Shown: positions 45,015 through 53,195 of the stretch, one piece after another | How the letters are laid out: each line of letters starts with the position of its first letter | How positions within the stretch are numbered: position 1 is the first letter of the stretch | Assembly: GCF_023023025.1 (NCBI RefSeq) | Contig: NZ_CP095481.1 | Span: 8,569,001-8,633,000 of the forward strand | DNA length: 64,000 nt | Reading direction: 5' to 3' | From: Amycolatopsis sp. WQ 127309 | GTDB taxonomy: Bacteria > Actinomycetota > Actinomycetes > Mycobacteriales > Pseudonocardiaceae | Made by a program: the position numbers and the translations under genes | Notes under the pieces: model-generated | What the model saw: only the letters and a program-made list of their open reading frames with translations | The model's database searches: none | What the model was told of the DNA's origin: nothing

Positions 45015-45287
45015 ATGTGCACCTACCTCACCGAGAAGTTCGCCCTCGAAGGCAGCGGCAAGGGCGCCCGCGGCTGGTTCCGCCTGAACGAGGGCACGGT
45101 CTACGTCGACCACCCGGTCCACGCGCCGTACGCGCACACGGTCAACATCGACTTCCGCAACCCGGACCTGGGCGCCTCGGCCCGCGTCGCCCTGGAGCTG
45201 ACGGAAGAAGACGCCCTGGCCCTGGCCGACGCGATCATCGCCGCGGTCAAATCCGCCCCCGCAGGCCTGGCCTCCCGCAACCAGTAG
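45015..45287 (+). CDS. DUF6295-type small protein
   Basis: 90 residues beginning MCTYLTEKFALEGSGKGARG, followed by WFRLNEGTVYVDHPVHAPYA and HTVNIDFRNPD, then a helical C-terminal region. It has two histidine-bearing strands and an N-terminal Cys at position 2. I recall this sequence as the actinobacterial DUF6295 family; no function is known. It follows the hydrolase gene after 11 bp, so it may belong to the same operon. A large hairpin follows immediately. Confidence 0.72.
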   Translation: MCTYLTEKFALEGSGKGARGWFRLNEGTVYVDHPVHAPYAHTVNIDFRNPDLGASARVALELTEEDALALADAIIAAVKSAPAGLASRNQ

Positions 45288-45290
45288 CCC

Positions 45291-45349
45291 AAAGCCGTGA
45301 AGGCCTCCTTACCGGCTCTTATGGCCGGTAAGGAGGCCTTCACGGCTTT
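45291..45349. repeat. Large hairpin repeat, copy A (26-bp perfect arms)
   Basis: Arms 45291-45316 and 45324-45349 are perfectly complementary with a 7-base loop. The core is GTGAAGGCCTCCTT and its complement. It starts at the stop codon of the S1P-lyase-like gene on the minus strand and separates two convergent genes, so it probably terminates both. A near-identical element is at 51189-51241. Confidence 0.85.
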
Positions 45350-46764
45350 CACGGCGTGTAGAGGGCGCCCAGGAACTCCAGGAGGAGGCGCTCGCGCAGC
45401 GGTGCGGGCGCGGTGGCGAGGAGCGCGTTGATCGGGGCCATGCGGTCCGGGAGGCCGGACGCGCCCCCGAGTCCGGCCGCGGCTAGCAGGCCGGCGAACT
45501 GTTCCGACGTCAGGGTTGCCGGGTCGAGGGCGGCGACGAACTCCGCCACCGCCGGGTCGATCAGCACCGGGCCCGACTCGCGGGCCGCGTCGACGGAGGC
45601 CGCGAGGTCCGTGAGGACTTCCTTCTCGCTGCCGTTGTTGGCCGCCGTGACCGTGAGGTGCAGGTTCGCCGGGGACGACAGATGCGCGAACTGCGGCTGG
45701 ACGTACCAGCCGCGCGTCTTCATCTCGTCCGCCACCGTGAACAGGTCGAAACCGTCGTCGCCGGTGAACGCGATCAGCGTCGACACCGGGTCACCGAGGA
45801 TCCGCAGGCCCGCGATTTCCGCGACGCCCGCCCGGATCCGCGACACCGCTTCGCGCGTCGAGGAAGCCAGCTGAAGGTAGCCGTCGTCGCCGAGGTGGCG
45901 GACCACCGCCCACGCCGCCGCCAGGGGGCCGCCCGAGCGGGTGCTCTGGATCGTCGTGTTCAGCATCGTGTAGCCCGGCCAGCCCGCGCTCGCGAAGTAG
46001 TGCGTCCGCCGCAGCTCCGCCGACGCGTGCAGCAGCACCGACGTCCCCTTCGGGCAGTACGCGTACTTGTGCAGGTCCACCGAAATGCTCGTGACGCCCG
46101 GGACGCGGAAGTCGAACGGCGCGACGTCGGCGCCGAGGCGGGCGAAGTACGGCAGGACCCAGCCGCCGATGCAGGCGTCGACGTGCATCCGGACGCCCCG
46201 GGCAGCAGCCGCGGCCGCGATCTCGGGAACCGGGTCGAGGACGCCGTGCGCGTACGACGGCGCACTCGCCACCACCAGTACCGTCGAGTCCTCGATCGCC
46301 GCGGCCATCGCGGCCGGATCGGCGCGGAACGTCACCGGGTCGACCGGGACGTCGATCCGGCGCAGCCCGAACAGGTGCGCGGCCTTGTGGAACGCCGCGT
46401 GCGCGGTGGTCGGCAGCACGATCGACGGCGCGGCGATCTCCGGGTGCGCGTCGCGCGCGGCGAGCACCGAGAGCAGGCACGACTCCGTGCCCCCGGACGT
46501 CACCGAACCGACGACGCCCGGGACGTCGCCGAGCAGCCGGGACGCCGCGCCGACGAGGTCGTTCTCCATGCGCAGCAGGCTGGGGAACGCCGTCGGGTCG
46601 AGGCCGTTGGCCGACGACGCCAGCGCGTGCGCGGCGGCCCCCAGGGAATCCACTTCGGACAGTCCGCTGTCGTAGACGTAGGCCAGCGTGCGGCCGCCGT
46701 GCGTCGGCAGGTCACCGGCGCGCAGCTCCCGCAGCGCCGCGAGGACGTCCTCAGGCGGGTTCAT
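45349..46764 (-). CDS. Sphingosine-1-phosphate lyase-like PLP enzyme
   Basis: A 471-residue group II PLP decarboxylase-fold enzyme with the pattern of S1P lyase. Blocks are VTSGGTESCLLSVLAARDAH, TAHAAFHKAAHLFGLRRIDV, SAPSYAHGVLDPVPEIA, HVDACIGGWVLPYFARLG and DFRVPGVTSISVDLHKYAYC, with the PLP Lys in LHKY; PKGTSVLL follows. Human S1P lyase, as I remember it, shares each of these. It lacks an N-terminal membrane anchor, as bacterial forms do. The predicted reaction splits sphingosine-1-phosphate into phosphoethanolamine and a long-chain aldehyde. Last gene of the sphingolipid operon; the start overlaps the MFS stop by 14 bp. No sphingosine kinase is in the window. Confidence 0.8.
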   Translation of the reverse strand: MNPPEDVLAALRELRAGDLPTHGGRTLAYVYDSGLSEVDSLGAAAHALASSANGLDPTAFPSLLRMENDLVGAASRLLGDVPGVVGSVTSGGTESCLLSVLAARDAHPEIAAPSIVLPTTAHAAFHKAAHLFGLRRIDVPVDPVTFRADPAAMAAAIEDSTVLVVASAPSYAHGVLDPVPEIAAAAAARGVRMHVDACIGGWVLPYFARLGADVAPFDFRVPGVTSISVDLHKYAYCPKGTSVLLHASAELRRTHYFASAGWPGYTMLNTTIQSTRSGGPLAAAWAVVRHLGDDGYLQLASSTREAVSRIRAGVAEIAGLRILGDPVSTLIAFTGDDGFDLFTVADEMKTRGWYVQPQFAHLSSPANLHLTVTAANNGSEKEVLTDLAASVDAARESGPVLIDPAVAEFVAALDPATLTSEQFAGLLAAAGLGGASGLPDRMAPINALLATAPAPLRERLLLEFLGALYTP

Positions 46765-48082
46765 GACGCGGCTCCAGCGGTTCCCGCGGCTCCAGCACCG
46801 AGCGCCGCAGCAGCGGCAGGGCCAGCGCGATCAGCACGCCGGGGATGATCGACGAGCCGAGCAGGATCGCGACGATCGCGCTGTGCGGCTGGTCGGTCGT
46901 CGCGTCGGTGCTCGAGACGTACCCGCCGAACGCCAGGATCGCGCTCCACAGCCCGGCGCCCAGCGCGAGGCCGAGCGTCTCCCCCGCGGTCCACACGCCG
47001 GCCGCGATCCCCGCGCGGGTCTCGCCGGTGCGCTCCTCCTCGGCCGTGATCAGGTCCGGCAGGATGGCGAGCGGGAACACCGAGATCCCCGCGTAGCCGA
47101 CGCCGCAGAGCGCGACGAACACCAGGATGACCACGAGCGGCAGCGACTGGGCCAGGATCAGGCCCAGCAGGCCGATCGCGAACGCCGCCGTGGCGATGCG
47201 GAAGCCGTTGAGCTTGCCGACGCGGGCGCCGAGACGCGGCCACAGCGGCATCGTCAGCAGCGCCGGGCCGACGAAGATCACGAAGATCACCGTGCCGTAG
47301 CCCTCGCTGCCGAGGATGCGCTGGGCGAAGAACGGGATGGCCGCCAGCACCGTGCCGATGCCGAGCGCCTGGATGAAGTACGTGCCCAGCAGCCAGCGGA
47401 ACGGCCGCCACCGCGCGATGGTCCGCGAGAGATCCTTGAAGCTCACCGTGTTCGGCCGCAGCGACCCGACCGGCGCGCCCTTGAGCCCGAAGTACACCAG
47501 CAGCGTCGCGGCCAGCACGATCAGCCCGATCACGATGGCCATCACGCGGTACCCGGCGACCCCGCCGATGCCGGAGGTGATCGCCGGGGCGCCACCGCCG
47601 CAGATCAGGATCGTCACGGCCAGGACGCCGATGCGCACGCTGGTGAGCTTCGTCCGCTCGTCGGCGGACTCGGTCAGCTCGGCCGGCAGCGCGTTGAACG
47701 GCACCTGGAACACCGCGTACGCGGTCGCGCAGGCGGTGAACAGGATCGCCACGTACAGCGCGTCCGGCAACGGCGCCCCGAAGCCCGGGTGGGCGAACAT
47801 CAGCGCGAAGAGGATCGCGACGCCGATGCCGCCGATCAGCAGGAACCGGCGCCGGCTGCCGGTCTTCAGCAGGTTCGCGTCGGACATCCGCCCGGCGATC
47901 GGGTTGAACAGCACGTCCCAGGCCTTCGGGACGAACACGATGACACCCGCCGCGGCGGCGGGCACGGCCATCGTGTCGGTGAGGTACTTGACCAGGATCA
48001 GGCCGGGGACCGTGCCGAAGGACCCGGTGACGAACGAGCCGAGCGAATACCTGAACCGCGTCCGGCCGGACAGCGTCGTCAT
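46751..48082 (-). CDS. MFS transporter (GPH-like) in the sphingolipid operon
   Basis: 443 residues with about 12 hydrophobic segments. It has the glycoside-pentoside-hexuronide-like layout: RYSLGSFVTGSFGTVPGLIL at the N-terminus, FVPKAWDVLFNPIAGRMSDA after TM2, and VPFNALPAELTESADERTKL between TM4 and TM5. The cytoplasmic tail is short and charged. Position between secreted lipid hydrolases and an intracellular lyase suggests uptake of a sphingoid base or head-group product; this is inference. ATG 48082 has AGGAGG upstream; the longer frame is an artefact. Confidence 0.8.
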   Translation of the reverse strand: MTTLSGRTRFRYSLGSFVTGSFGTVPGLILVKYLTDTMAVPAAAAGVIVFVPKAWDVLFNPIAGRMSDANLLKTGSRRRFLLIGGIGVAILFALMFAHPGFGAPLPDALYVAILFTACATAYAVFQVPFNALPAELTESADERTKLTSVRIGVLAVTILICGGGAPAITSGIGGVAGYRVMAIVIGLIVLAATLLVYFGLKGAPVGSLRPNTVSFKDLSRTIARWRPFRWLLGTYFIQALGIGTVLAAIPFFAQRILGSEGYGTVIFVIFVGPALLTMPLWPRLGARVGKLNGFRIATAAFAIGLLGLILAQSLPLVVILVFVALCGVGYAGISVFPLAILPDLITAEEERTGETRAGIAAGVWTAGETLGLALGAGLWSAILAFGGYVSSTDATTDQPHSAIVAILLGSSIIPGVLIALALPLLRRSVLEPREPLEPRHEPA

Positions 48083-48116
48083 GGTCCTCCTCGAAAAGCG
48101 GATTCCGATGAGGCGA

Positions 48117-49067
48117 TCAGTAGTGGATCTCGGCCAGCACCGGGTAGTGGTCGGAGGGAATCGTGCCACCGTCGTAATGCACCAGCTGTACCGGCCCGAC
48201 CTCGGCGCGTCGCAGCGAGCCGACGTAGTCCAGCGAATCGCGGTAGGTGGCCGGGACGGACTTCGCCGCGTCCGGGTTGGTGACGGCGTCGAAGCTGTAC
48301 TCCCCCGCTCCCGCGGTGCGCAGTGTCCCGCCGAGCACCGCCTCGCCCTGCTCGGACTGGGAGCGGCCCAGGGTGTCACGGCGGCCCTGCCCGGCCCAGT
48401 ACTCGATGTTGAGGTCACCGGCGATCGCGACCGGGTCGGCCGCCGGGACGTGCGCGGCGGCGAGGTCGCGCAGCTCGCCGAGCTGCGCCAGCCGGATCTG
48501 GTGCGCCTTCGGCAGGGTGTCGGGGGCTTCGTCGGCCTGCAGGTGCGTGCCGGCCACCCAGAGCGCCTTGCCGTGGGCGAAGATCCGGACCAGCGCCGCG
48601 CCCTTGTTGGACAGGTAGTCGGCGGTGCCGGAGTAGGAGTTGCGGTAGACGAGCTGGTGCTTCTCGGTGATCGGGTACCTGCTCAGCACCGTGACGCCGC
48701 CGTTGACGACGATCGGCGAGTTCGAGCAGTTGCCGCTCACGGACGTCCAGCCCGGCGACGTCGAGCAGGACTGCCCGACCAGCGGCGTCTGGAACGGGTA
48801 GGCGTCGACGAGCCGGTCGCGCAGCGCCTCGGCCTGGGAGCTGAAGGCTTCTTCGAGCACGACGACGTCGGCGGCCTTGGCCCGGATGACGCGTTCGGCG
48901 GCCTGGGCCCTGGCTTCTTTGTCCGACGTGTTCGGGTTGGCGATCCACGGCAGCTGCCACAGGTTGAAGCTCAGGACGGACACGCTCGCGGGCGCGGCCT
49001 GAGCGGGCGCGGTCAGCAGAGCGAGAGCAGTGCAGACGACGGCGGCGAGAATGGCGGTTCTCCGCAC
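48117..49067 (-). CDS. Secreted sphingomyelinase C-type phosphodiesterase
   Basis: 316 residues. A Sec signal peptide (MRRTAILAAVVCTALALLTA, cleaved after about residue 25, APAQAA) precedes an endonuclease/exonuclease/phosphatase domain. Catalytic blocks: VLSFNLWQLPW, ADVVVLEEAF, GTHLQADEA, AIAGDLNIEYW and the C-terminal SDHYPVLAEI. This set matches bacterial neutral sphingomyelinases, which release phosphocholine and ceramide. A disulfide is likely at SCSTSPGWTSVSGNC. It lies 22 bp downstream of the ceramidase gene, giving the next enzyme in sphingomyelin breakdown. Confidence 0.82.
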   Translation of the reverse strand: MRRTAILAAVVCTALALLTAPAQAAPASVSVLSFNLWQLPWIANPNTSDKEARAQAAERVIRAKAADVVVLEEAFSSQAEALRDRLVDAYPFQTPLVGQSCSTSPGWTSVSGNCSNSPIVVNGGVTVLSRYPITEKHQLVYRNSYSGTADYLSNKGAALVRIFAHGKALWVAGTHLQADEAPDTLPKAHQIRLAQLGELRDLAAAHVPAADPVAIAGDLNIEYWAGQGRRDTLGRSQSEQGEAVLGGTLRTAGAGEYSFDAVTNPDAAKSVPATYRDSLDYVGSLRRAEVGPVQLVHYDGGTIPSDHYPVLAEIHY

Positions 49068-49089
49068 GACAGCGGTCCTTTCAGGAGGT

Positions 49090-51090
49090 TCAGGAGACGA
49101 CGAAGGCGCGGGAGGTCCCGCTGAGCTGGGCGATGGCGCCGGTCAGGCCGTGCTTCCAGGCTCCGAAGTGGACGACGCGAAACTTGCCGACCGGCGCGTT
49201 CGCCGGGATGTCCCAGGTGACCTCGGCACGCGACTCGGACACGAACGTCCGGGTCCAGCGGAACTTCGTCGCCCAGTCGCCGTCGTCGGCGTAGCGGACC
49301 CAGCGGCCGTCCACGTACTGCTGGATCTCCAGGAACGTGCCGTCGCGACGCAGATCGTTCTTCGGGTGGCCGGTCACGAACGCGACCGCTACCTGGTCGC
49401 CGCGCCGGTAGCTGCTCTTGGCGTCGGTGACGACGTCGCCGAAGCTCTTCAGCAGCGGCGCGCTGTCGAAGACGACGCCCGGCTGGAAGTTGACGAGCTT
49501 GCCGCGCAGGTCGCGCGGGACCGGCCCGTGCGGGACCGAAGCGCCCGCCTTCATCGCCGCGGCGAGCCTCCCGAACTCCTGCTGGTACGCGGGTAGCGTG
49601 TAGCGGCCGAAGAGCGTCGACGCGCCTTCGTACTGCTGCGAGTCGTACTCCTCCGGCGTCGTCACGTACTGGCTGTAGGCGTTGGAGTAGCCCTGCATGA
49701 GGACGTTCTCCAGCGGGACGCCGAGTTCCGCGGCGACCGTCTGCCGGATCCGCAGCCCGGCCACGATCGTGTACTCGGCGGGCCCGGCGACCAGGTGCAG
49801 CTGCCCGATCCGGACGATCTGCAGCGGCAGCACCTCGGGCGCCCACGGGTACGGCTTCATCGCACCGAACGGCACGGCGACGACCTTCGGTGCCTGCGCG
49901 TCGGCCAGGGCCTGCGGGATCGGCGCGTCGATGCCGCCGAGCCAGTCGATGAACGGGTTCTTGACGCCCTCGGGCAGCGGCAGTCCCGGGCCGTCTTCGG
50001 TGCTGCCGGCCAGCATCGAGACGCCGATGGCCGCGGTGCACGTCCGGTGCGGACGGCCGTCCGGGGTGAACCTCGGGTCGACGTCGACGGCGGACATGTC
50101 CACGTAGGTCATCCGGTGGTCGACGCCGCCGGTCACGGCCTCGCTCGCCGCGTCGAACGCGCGTTTCGCCGCCTGGAACTGGAGTTCGCCGATGCGCTGG
50201 GTGTTCTGGAACTCCGTCTCGGGCGTGCCCGGCTGGAGGTTGAGGTTCGGCGTCATGTCGCCGGAGTTGGTCTGGGCGAACGCGGCGACGAACCCGGGCG
50301 GGCCGTCGAGGTAGCGGACGCCGGCGTGGTCGTGCTCCCACGTGTAGGCCGCGTAACCCTTGTTGTCGCTGCTGATCAGGTGGTTGCCGTTGCTCATCGA
50401 CGTGCCGTGCGTGGCGAACCAGGTGATCGCGCCAACGTCCTTGCCGCCTTGGCGGAACCGCAGCACGGTGACGGCCGGGTCGATCGAGAGCGGGAAGTGG
50501 TCCTTGTCCGGGTTCAGCTCGAAGGCGACCCTCGATCGGTTGGCACTCGCCTCGGTCAGCTCGGTCCGGCCGAGTGTCAGTTCGCCGGGCGCGAGGGTGT
50601 CGTGCGCGTGGCCGATCGCTTCGACGATCCCGGCGACGACGGCGTCGTAGGTCTGCTGCTGGAACCCGAGGATCGACAGGTCGTAGGCCGCGTAGTGCGA
50701 GTCGCCGCCGCACGCCGAATGCGTGTGGGTGGCGTTGAGCAGCACGTTCTGCTCGGTGTAGGTGCTCCCGTACTTCCGCGCCAGCTCACGCAGGACGCCC
50801 TGGTGGACGGACTGGAACAGTGCACCCAGCTCGGCGGTGACGAAGACGATCCGGTTCGTCCCGTCGTCGACGACGTACGCGCGGGCCCGGGTCCGCAGGT
50901 GGATACCGGCCGTCTGCTGCTGCGGCATCGAGTAGCCCATCATGCCGTTCTCGGCGGCGGGCCCGGTGACGTCGCCGAGCCCGACGCCGACCCGGAGCGT
51001 GGCCCCTGCGGCTGCGGCCGGTCTGGCCGCGGCGGCGGCGAAGGGCAGCGCGGCGGCTCCGGCCAGGACGTGACGACGACTCACCCGCAT
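49090..51090 (-). CDS. Secreted neutral/alkaline ceramidase
   Basis: A 666-residue amidase that cuts ceramide to sphingosine and a fatty acid. The N-terminus has a twin-arginine signal (VSRRHVLAGAAALPFAAAAA), so export is probably folded, by the Tat system. The catalytic domain begins GVGLGDVTGPAAENGMMGYS. It includes NATHTHSACGGDSHYAAYDL (zinc ligands) and the nucleophile Ser in TNSGDMTPNLN, and ends in a C-terminal beta domain from about residue 530. Length and order fit the neutral ceramidase family. First gene of the sphingolipid operon. Start ATG 51090 has GGGAG five bases upstream; promoter and operator at 51103-51162. Confidence 0.88.
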   Translation of the reverse strand: MRVSRRHVLAGAAALPFAAAAARPAAAAGATLRVGVGLGDVTGPAAENGMMGYSMPQQQTAGIHLRTRARAYVVDDGTNRIVFVTAELGALFQSVHQGVLRELARKYGSTYTEQNVLLNATHTHSACGGDSHYAAYDLSILGFQQQTYDAVVAGIVEAIGHAHDTLAPGELTLGRTELTEASANRSRVAFELNPDKDHFPLSIDPAVTVLRFRQGGKDVGAITWFATHGTSMSNGNHLISSDNKGYAAYTWEHDHAGVRYLDGPPGFVAAFAQTNSGDMTPNLNLQPGTPETEFQNTQRIGELQFQAAKRAFDAASEAVTGGVDHRMTYVDMSAVDVDPRFTPDGRPHRTCTAAIGVSMLAGSTEDGPGLPLPEGVKNPFIDWLGGIDAPIPQALADAQAPKVVAVPFGAMKPYPWAPEVLPLQIVRIGQLHLVAGPAEYTIVAGLRIRQTVAAELGVPLENVLMQGYSNAYSQYVTTPEEYDSQQYEGASTLFGRYTLPAYQQEFGRLAAAMKAGASVPHGPVPRDLRGKLVNFQPGVVFDSAPLLKSFGDVVTDAKSSYRRGDQVAVAFVTGHPKNDLRRDGTFLEIQQYVDGRWVRYADDGDWATKFRWTRTFVSESRAEVTWDIPANAPVGKFRVVHFGAWKHGLTGAIAQLSGTSRAFVVS

Positions 51091-51162: not shown

Positions 51163-51188
51163 CCCGGCAGAAGTGCCGCCACGGAAAT

Positions 51189-51241
51189 GCCGTGAAGGCC
51201 TCCTTCCCGGCCGTAAGAGCCGGGAAGGAGGCCTTCACGGC
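51189..51241. repeat. Large hairpin repeat, copy B (23-bp perfect arms)
   Basis: Arms 51189-51211 and 51219-51241, perfectly complementary, 7-base loop. It differs from copy A (45291-45349) at one position per arm of the core (CCTTCCCGG here, CCTTACCGG in A) and in the loop. It begins 3 bases after the stop of the oxidoreductase gene on the minus strand and is likely its terminator. Confidence 0.85.
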
Positions 51242-51243
51242 TT

Positions 51244-52269
51244 TCAGCCCAGGGCGTCGGCGATCTTCTCCAGGGTCGCCGCGTCGCCGCGCAGCAGCAG
51301 CTGCGTGACGACGGTGTCTTCCCACGCCTTCAGCTCTTCGCGGATCTTCGCCGCCGGCCCGATGAGCGACGTGTCCTCGACGAGCGACGTCGGGATCGCC
51401 GCGACGGCCTCCTCCTTGCGCCCGGCGAGGTACAGCTCCTGGACCTTGTCCGCGACGTCCTCGTAGCCCAGCCGCGCGAAGACGTCGTGGTGGAAGTTCA
51501 CGCTCTTCGCGCCCATGCCGCCGATGTAGAGCGCCAGCGACGGCTTGATCCAGCTCGCCGCTTCCTCGACGTCGTCGTGCACGATCACCGGGACCGACGC
51601 GGGCACCTCGAACGTCTCCAGCGTGTGCCGGGCGCCCGGGCGCGCGAAGCCCTCTTCGAGCGCGGCCTTGTAGAAGTCGTTGCTCTTGGGCGAAAAGAAC
51701 AGCGGGAGCCAGCCGTCGCAGATCTCGGCGGAGAGCGCGACGTTCTTCGGGCCCTCCGCGGCCAGGTGGATCGGGACGTCGGCACGCAGCGGGTGCACGG
51801 TCGGCTTGAGCGCCTTGCCGAGCCCGGCGCCGCCCTTCAGCGGGAGCTGGAAGTGCTGCCCGTCCAGGGTCACCGGCGCCTCGCGGGCCAGCACCTGCCG
51901 CACGATGTCGATGTACTCGCGCGTGCGCGCCAGGGGTTTCGGGTACGGCTGGCCGTACCAGCCCTCGACGACCTGCGGGCCGGACGCGCCGAGCCCGAGC
52001 ACGAACCGGCCGCCCGACAGGTGGTCCAGGGTCAGCGCGCTCATCGCCGTCGCCGTCGGGGTGCGCGCGGCCATCTGGACGATGTTGGTGCCGAGCCGGA
52101 TCCGGCTGGTCGAGGAGCCCCACCAGGCCAGCGGCGTGAACGCGTCCGAGCCGTAGGCCTCCGCCGTCCACACCGAGTCGAAGCCGAGCTCCTCGGCTTT
52201 GAGGACCGCCTCCAGCGCACCCGGGGTCGGCCCGCTGCCCCAGTACCCGACGTGGAATCCCAGCTTCAC
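51244..52269 (-). CDS. LLM-class F420-dependent oxidoreductase
   Basis: A 341-residue luciferase-like TIM-barrel enzyme: MKLGFHVGYWG at the N-terminus, EELGFDSVWTAEAYGSDAFT, TSRIRLGTNIVQMAARTPTA, LDHLSGGRFVLGLGASGPQV and HPLRADVPIHLAAEGPKNVA. The pattern is typical of F420-dependent rather than FMN-dependent members, as in mycobacterial homologues. It would oxidise or reduce a small substrate; the identity is unknown. It follows the DUF2236 gene after 8 bp, so the two are one operon. Confidence 0.85.
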   Translation of the reverse strand: MKLGFHVGYWGSGPTPGALEAVLKAEELGFDSVWTAEAYGSDAFTPLAWWGSSTSRIRLGTNIVQMAARTPTATAMSALTLDHLSGGRFVLGLGASGPQVVEGWYGQPYPKPLARTREYIDIVRQVLAREAPVTLDGQHFQLPLKGGAGLGKALKPTVHPLRADVPIHLAAEGPKNVALSAEICDGWLPLFFSPKSNDFYKAALEEGFARPGARHTLETFEVPASVPVIVHDDVEEAASWIKPSLALYIGGMGAKSVNFHHDVFARLGYEDVADKVQELYLAGRKEEAVAAIPTSLVEDTSLIGPAAKIREELKAWEDTVVTQLLLRGDAATLEKIADALG

Positions 52270-52277
52270 GAATCCTC

Positions 52278-53195
52278 CTAGATGTTCGGCGCGTAGTGCT
52301 CGGGTTTGCCGCGCTCGGACAGCGGCGGCAGGTTCCTGGGTGGAGTCTCGACCACGGCGGCGTCCGGAGCCACCTCGCCGCGGACGCGGCGCCAGCCGGC
52401 CCGGGCCCGCGGGTGGTAACGGCGGTCGTGCGGGACGAGCTTGAACACGGCGTTGATCAGCTTCCCCACCCGGCGGTGGCGGCGCGCGTCACGCTCGGAC
52501 CAGCGCAGGCCGAGCCGGTCGCGGATCTCGCGGTCGTACAGCCCGGTCGTCAGCCAGACGAAGTTCCGCGCGACCAGCACGCTCACCGGCCGCCAGAGCG
52601 CGTCCGGCAGCCACGGCAGGAACGGCGGCTTCGCGATCCCGGCGAGGTCGAGCACGTCCCGGGTGGCCTTGTTGTCCTCCAGGACGTCGGCGCACATGTG
52701 CTTCCAGTAGCGCTGGAAGTCCGCCCAGCTCTCCGGCACCGGCCGCATCGTCATGTCGTACATCCGCCACCACGTGACGTGCTCGTCGAACAACCGCCGC
52801 TTTTCGGCCTCACCGATCCCGCCCATGAAGTGGTCGGCGATGAGGATCGTGCTGACGAAGAACGTCGAGTGCGCCCAGTAGTAGGTGTCCGGGTCGAGCG
52901 CGTGGTAACGACGGCCCAGCGCGTCGATCCCCTTGATCCGGTCGTGGTAACCACGGACTTCCAGGGCGGTCCGGTGCGCGCGCGGGCCGTCGTAGACGAC
53001 CCCGCCGATCGGGTAGAGCGAGCGGAAGAGGCGCTGCCAGCGCTCCTCGAAGAACCGCGAGTGCTGCTCGACGCCGGCGCCGAGGCCCGGGTGCATGTTC
53101 TGCATCGACCCGGCCCACAGCGCGATCAGCAGGCCACGCCAGTCGCCGAAGTACTTCCAGGTCAGCGACTCGGGCCCGAGCGGTTGCGGGGTCAT
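52278..53195 (-). CDS. DUF2236 (MpaB-type oxygenase) family protein
   Basis: 305 residues. Family signatures: SLTWKYFGDWRGLLIALWAG at the N-terminus, HPGLGAGVEQHSRFFEERWQ, GVVYDGPRAHRTALEVRGYH, WAHSTFFVSTILIAD and DEHVTWWRMYDM. The conserved histidines probably bind haem; family members include a fungal oxygenase and a latex-cleaving haem enzyme. The start was moved to ATG 53195 (GAGGAG six bases upstream). Divergent from a TetR gene, with a shared operator at 53222-53267. The paired downstream gene is an F420-type oxidoreductase. Confidence 0.83.
   Translation of the reverse strand: MTPQPLGPESLTWKYFGDWRGLLIALWAGSMQNMHPGLGAGVEQHSRFFEERWQRLFRSLYPIGGVVYDGPRAHRTALEVRGYHDRIKGIDALGRRYHALDPDTYYWAHSTFFVSTILIADHFMGGIGEAEKRRLFDEHVTWWRMYDMTMRPVPESWADFQRYWKHMCADVLEDNKATRDVLDLAGIAKPPFLPWLPDALWRPVSVLVARNFVWLTTGLYDREIRDRLGLRWSERDARRHRRVGKLINAVFKLVPHDRRYHPRARAGWRRVRGEVAPDAAVVETPPRNLPPLSERGKPEHYAPNI

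Follow-up and report, generated by a model that had tools for sequence, protein, structure and literature searches.

The closest described relatives of the enzyme at the centre of this work are the sphingosine-1-phosphate (S1P) lyases, such as StSPL, human SGPL1 and yeast Dpl1. A review tabulates which residues of S1P lyases bind the cofactor, pyridoxal phosphate (PLP), and which bind the phosphate of the substrate (PMC6148460, section 5.1, Table 3). Listed there as binding the substrate phosphate are a small A or T at position 103 and an H or Q at position 129 (StSPL numbering). Here we examine a locus in a 64-kb stretch of DNA (64,000 nucleotides, positions 8,569,001 to 8,633,000 of its contig, in the following "the window") of the 11.13-Mb genome of Amycolatopsis sp. 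WQ 127309, where genes for a neutral ceramidase, a sphingomyelinase-like protein, a carrier of the MFS_2 family and a PLP enzyme similar to S1P lyases form a four-gene unit (Table 1). The strongest new point is the pairing of carrier and lyase-like enzyme, which goes along with an invariant change in the substrate pocket, rather than the four-gene set. Judged by its sequence, the PLP enzyme is a relative of the known S1P lyases, from the same stock but with a changed substrate pocket.

The PLP enzyme shows an S1P-lyase-like sequence, PLP fold type I and the catalytic lysine. It matches the Pfam family Pyridoxal_deC with 62 bits and misses the cut-off of the NCBIfam MfnA model (192 of 299 bits). 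In comparisons with solved proteins it scored 277 bits against StSPL, but only 79 (MfnA) and 61 bits against decarboxylases, and in a fold comparison the listed S1P lyases except 4w8i outranked the decarboxylases. We mapped its residues by aligning it to StSPL and the human enzyme, and followed them through an 81-sequence alignment of the window's enzyme and the enzymes of 80 named loci (the best 80 of 331 confirmed); its identity to the named Amycolatopsis relatives reaches 93%. Two of the published substrate-phosphate residues are replaced, A103 by Y29 and H129 by D56, in all 81 members and in all 120 near homologues compared. The cofactor residue S353 is replaced by T275, again in 81 of 81, while the remaining cofactor residues and the catalytic lysine are kept, as are the counterparts of C276 and H201. 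At the position of the substrate-entry residue Tyr482, in the C-terminal extension, all 81 members have the equivalent of N446, although the C-terminal alignment is unsure there. Proteins similar to StSPL have H129 in 120 and A103 in 119 of 120 cases (G103 in the remaining one) and never Y103 or D129. Each of these two sets of 120 is the best 120 of about 8000 matches and thus holds close kin of its query. We refer to the family with the changed residues as the YD family.

The change extends to more distant members. In a sample of 296 genomes of the class Actinomycetes, 78 contained the enzyme itself or one of its short relatives (E up to 1e-50); 40 of these matches, chosen across the identity range, and five from the relatives search were inspected. 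The 31 full-length proteins among them all have D at the 129 position, and 30 have Y at the 103 position. The exception (locus L130) has H there and is changed at the C276 position too, and in one other protein (L143) F replaces the counterpart of Y105. At 103 the 14 shorter relatives carry L, S, T or Y, and at 129 they carry S, G, N or Q. The counterpart of K317 is kept in all 45.

For the phylogeny we used one tree of 39 sequences and one of 24 sequences without outgroup; MfnA sequences were left out. In the larger tree the YD family forms one group (support 90/85), and the human and Symbiobacterium S1P lyases fall into a group of 13 (100/100) together with three short relatives in which 103 is S or T and 129 is Q. 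The remaining short relatives are placed between the two groups. The smaller tree parts the YD family from the human and Symbiobacterium group, both at 100/99. Making the two groups direct neighbours costs 5.7 log units and is not rejected by an approximately unbiased (AU) test (p 0.07). The PLP enzyme hence lies outside the sampled proven S1P lyases in these trees, and a direct sister relation to them is compatible with the AU test. A preliminary description of this DNA had likened the enzyme to S1P lyases, a likeness that a phylogenetic position outside them would count against. The outcome is divided: by sequence and fold the enzyme is nearer to S1P lyases than to the solved glutamate or tyrosine decarboxylases, but it stands apart from the proven ones both in the trees and in the residues at 103 and 129.

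With A/T exchanged for Y and H/Q for D, the phosphate pocket appears rebuilt, so that S1P is a less likely substrate than a long-chain base that is unphosphorylated or carries another head group, and a sphingosine kinase would be unnecessary. We tentatively favour the reading that the four genes constitute a unit for scavenging (or detoxifying) sphingolipids, built on an older core of carrier and PLP enzyme, with a final substrate that is likely not S1P. Outside the cell, the sphingomyelinase-like enzyme would convert sphingomyelin to ceramide, from which the ceramidase would set free a sphingoid base, sphingosine. The carrier would then move the lipid-like product through the membrane, and inside the PLP enzyme would cleave it by a retro-aldol reaction between C2 and C3, yielding a long-chain aldehyde and an ethanolamine-type product. 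EutB was searched for and not found.

The PLP enzyme may thus take an unphosphorylated long-chain base. Weighing against this, three further substrate-phosphate residues, Y105, N126 and K317, are kept as Y31, N53 and K239 and are invariant in 81 of 81 members. They would fit a canonical route, in which imported sphingosine is phosphorylated by a DAGK_cat kinase of the genome and cleaved by a genuine S1P lyase whose pocket differs somewhat. The overall similarity in sequence and fold and the AU test, which leaves the YD family and the proven lyases joined in one clade unrejected, agree with such a route, and a Burkholderia S1P lyase described as active has T at 103 and Q at 129 in the table of PMC6148460, so that H129 is not essential. 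The preliminary description had noted that a sphingosine kinase is missing. This is correct for the surroundings of the operon, where no hidden kinase was found; however, the genome encodes four DAGK_cat proteins elsewhere, and a kinase may not be needed at all. For two of the four, a comparison with solved structures gave bacterial diacylglycerol or lipid kinases as the best matches (50.6 and 73 bits), which speaks against the canonical route, even though one of them also resembles human sphingosine kinase 1 weakly (28.7 bits). Considering also that Y103 and D129 occur in none of the StSPL-like proteins compared and that the YD family lies outside the human-Symbiobacterium group, we regard the canonical route as rather unlikely.

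The conserved core of the locus is the carrier and the PLP enzyme, which the sequences reveal as an adjacent pair in actinomycetes, and not the four-gene set. In each of the 80 named loci, the PLP gene is immediately preceded by carrier sequence, which in one of them (L037) is partial, at a contig end. A 4-bp overlap is the commonest form of the junction. In Kibdelosporangium aridum (L044:7511-7998) the carrier reads as two short open reading frames (ORFs) next to a full-length PLP gene. In the distant set, where adjacency was judged on six-frame ORFs, a carrier is adjacent in 24 of 31 YD loci versus 0 of 14 loci of short relatives. The seven YD loci without an adjacent carrier are L130, L131, L136, L139, L142, L143 and L146. 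Three of these enzymes (L131, L136, L139) share another context, beside LysR and dihydropteroate-synthase-like genes (names assigned by eye).

The carrier clearly belongs to the Pfam family MFS_2 (PF13347, 262 bits, cut-off 27), whereas the cut-off of the NCBIfam gph symporter model is missed (184 of 231 bits). Its closest solved relatives, by sequence as well as by fold, are MFSD2A and then MelB, although in the profile search MFSD2A leads by a modest margin only. The first of the two cation-site Asp residues is kept (D56), whereas the second (D59 in MelB) is Asn in 77 of 77 carriers (the window's, as N60, and those of 76 loci). The 24 distant partner carriers have N (16), L (3), S (1) or D (4) at this position. 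The D59C mutant of MelB is described as an uncoupled uniporter (PMC8329300), and S1P export by MFSD2B as not driven by sodium (PMC5862976). Together with the loss of the second Asp, these analogies make it conceivable that the carrier is a facilitator, driven by the removal of its product inside the cell.

The two hydrolases, by contrast, were found next to this pair only in Amycolatopsis. In Amycolatopsis, the PLP enzyme was present in 33 of 36 genomes (the window's included) and a full-length ceramidase (>500 bits) in 18 of 36. All 18 have a ceramidase gene beside the carrier gene, and in 17 its distance to the PLP gene is 1.8 to 2.8 kb, with the carrier between. The arrangement is not due to chance, since the carrier lies upstream of the PLP gene in 80/80 loci and the ceramidase beside the carrier in 18/18 genomes. 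The 18th genome (G021) has kept ceramidase, sphingomyelinase and carrier, with the ceramidase gene upstream of the other two, and is missing the PLP gene, in whose place a histidine-phosphatase gene (L168:3016-3672) overlaps the carrier gene. The window's genome also holds a second, solitary ceramidase gene (L167:6928-8844).

A ceramidase is encoded in 26 of the 296 genomes sampled across the class, and judged by coordinates it is at the PLP locus in 0 of the 25 ceramidase genomes outside the genus. Nine of these 25 hold both genes, on different contigs in eight of the nine. Neither a carrier nor a PLP gene was found in the fetched stretch around non-genus ceramidases in any of 19 readable contexts (20 were fetched; L182 had no called ceramidase). 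A four-gene module across the class was rejected, as ceramidases elsewhere stand apart from the carrier-PLP pair. The joining of the four genes in one module, put forward in the preliminary description, is upheld within Amycolatopsis, where the ceramidase is tied to the carrier, but no such unit turned up outside the genus in the 296 Actinomycetes genomes (no search for the set was made in other classes or phyla). We found no description of the four-gene set or of the carrier-lyase pair in the openly licensed literature; the passages of PMC12134224 and PMC9430895 at hand concern subjects other than the four-gene unit.

Among the 80 named loci, 19 have a ceramidase match (in L026 a remnant only) and 14 a sphingomyelinase match. 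Ten loci contain sphingomyelinase tails of 26-34 residues, the weakest with E near 1e-4; one of the ten, L020, retains the ceramidase. The presence of the hydrolases is patchy on the PLP tree, and ceramidase identities mostly fall in step with those of the PLP enzyme. Taken together with the tails and the ceramidase remnant, these sequence patterns point to an ancestral unit of four genes from which some members of the genus lost the hydrolases. Repeated independent gain was set aside because the tails and the mostly in-step identities favour loss. A wider history can be imagined, in which the YD family would be a kinase-free sphingoid-base lyase fed by an MFSD2-like importer, the phosphate-binding residues at 103 and 129 would have come later, in the group of the proven lyases, and the secreted hydrolases would have been added in Amycolatopsis, completing the pathway within one operon; as a whole we hold it to be somewhat improbable.

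Most carrier-PLP pairs have no linked ceramidase, as would be expected if the PLP enzyme were a decarboxylase, or a lyase for another amine, the carrier imported that compound, and the hydrolases had joined for an unrelated or loosely related reason. Source names for family members include glutamate or tyrosine decarboxylase in several cases and sphinganine-1-phosphate aldolase in others, and MFS_2 also contains sugar symporters. A glutamate decarboxylase paralogue shares the Asp at 129 with the YD family, but it is without the counterparts of K317, C276 and Y105 that the family keeps. With the much higher score against StSPL than against the decarboxylases, a lysolipid transporter as the best solved match of the carrier, and the constant position of the Amycolatopsis ceramidase beside it, this explanation appears unlikely. 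The combination of an amino-acid decarboxylase with an antiporter was likewise set aside, as sequence and fold favour the lyase side.

The sphingolipid-scavenging reading draws on the families of the two hydrolases, which fit the steps from sphingomyelin to ceramide and from ceramide to sphingosine that the preliminary description had assigned to them. The ceramidase matches Pfam Ceramidase_alk with 580 bits, has a C-terminal domain in addition, and scores 627 bits against the Pseudomonas aeruginosa neutral ceramidase 2zws; it misses the cut-off of the NCBIfam equivalog NF041649 (664.8 of 1200 bits). We compared 20 operon copies (the window's, those of 18 loci and L168; the L026 remnant was left out) with 23 solitary ceramidases. 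The His, Glu and Tyr of the metal site are kept in 20 of 20 operon copies. At the position of Pseudomonas Ser274, the window's protein and four close relatives have Thr and 15 of 20 operon copies have Ser; Thr is found in 3 of 23 solitary copies. The sphingomyelinase-like protein matches Pfam Exo_endo_phos (63 bits) and misses the cut-off of the TIGR03395 equivalog (119.4 of 248.2 bits). Its best solved relatives, over most of its length, are the sphingomyelinases 7cne, 1zwx and 2ddr (106 to 85 bits). The motifs GDLN and SDH, presumably part of the metal site, are invariant in 15 sequences, as are E73, H175, D218, N220, D306 and H307.

Amycolatopsis is typically soil-living, no further gene in the unit points to host contact, and some members of the genus have lost the hydrolases but kept the core. 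These observations argue against a role in host interaction, in which the unit would attack eukaryotic membranes and the core pair would dispose of the freed sphingoid bases. The solved relatives of the sphingomyelinase-like protein do include a beta-hemolysin, and free sphingosine is reported to inhibit bacteria (PMC11893366), but we consider this role very improbable.

The four-gene operon itself is real and well bounded. Its four minus-strand ORFs (45349-51090) were found at the place and on the strand given in the preliminary description; their junctions are two gaps (22 and 34 bp) and one 14-bp overlap, also as described there, and a codon-usage gene caller recovers the same four genes. 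They likely form a single transcription unit, compact and with a hairpin at either end. The hairpin arms (GTGAAGGCCTCCTT) have four matches in the window, where 0.01 are expected, all within the two flanking hairpins. Because a simple terminator scan requiring a T run found none, we only infer that the hairpins end transcripts. A scan for sigma-70 promoters found nothing.

Table 1. Genes and flanking hairpins of the four-gene unit (window coordinates)
Feature	Position	Strand	Remarks
S1P-lyase-like PLP enzyme, separate YD subfamily	45349..46764	-	Schiff-base lysine K233; changed pocket Y29, D56, T275
MFS_2 carrier	46751..48082	-	ATG start at 48082; D56 kept, N60 replaces second cation-site Asp
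Sphingomyelinase-C-like phosphodiesterase	48117..49067	-	Sec-type leader (by eye)
Neutral ceramidase	49090..51090	-	N- and C-terminal domains; RR-type leader (by eye); Thr at Ser274 position
Hairpin 3' of last gene (PLP)	45289..45352	-	27 pairs; -55.5 kcal/mol, z -12; possible bidirectional transcript end
Hairpin between upstream LLM oxidoreductase gene and ceramidase gene	51184..51246	-	28 pairs; -56.7 kcal/mol, z -11; putative function

Just upstream of the ceramidase gene, on the same strand, are an F420-type LLM oxidoreductase gene and a gene with an MPAB_Lcp oxygenase domain (51244-53195). A match to the LLM gene is present in the stretch fetched for 47 of the 80 loci; here the hairpin separates it from the ceramidase gene. 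At the other end, a small DUF6295 gene (45015-45287) is convergent with the operon and shares the 45.3-kb hairpin.

If the proposed role is correct, soil actinomycetes would gain a compact means of using eukaryotic sphingolipids, a bacterial partner family could be named for MFSD2-type carriers, and the YD family would offer a natural comparison set for the origin of phosphate recognition in S1P lyases. The label sphinganine-1-phosphate aldolase on some family members is unproven, which calls for caution in annotation.

Compared with known systems, this is a known kind of pathway in a new arrangement and with a final enzyme that is probably different. With StSPL, human SGPL1 and yeast Dpl1, the PLP enzyme shares the PLP fold, the Schiff-base lysine and the counterparts of C276, H201, K317, Y105 and N126; it differs by Y, D and T at 103, 129 and 353, by its separate group and by the adjoining MFS_2 carrier. 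The carrier belongs to the family of the lysolipid and S1P transporters MFSD2A and MFSD2B and resembles MFSD2A most, and it shares the first cation-site Asp with MelB, whereas the second is mostly replaced. The GDLN and SDH motifs connect the sphingomyelinase-like protein to bacterial sphingomyelinase C, despite the missed equivalog cut-off. Pseudomonas aeruginosa has a similar neutral ceramidase, and its sphBCD operon, as described in PMC11893366, likewise combines sphingosine metabolism and a predicted PLP aldolase; SphD was dispensable there. That operon, however, works through a periplasmic oxidase and cytochrome c and, in the passages at hand, has no carrier or hydrolase.

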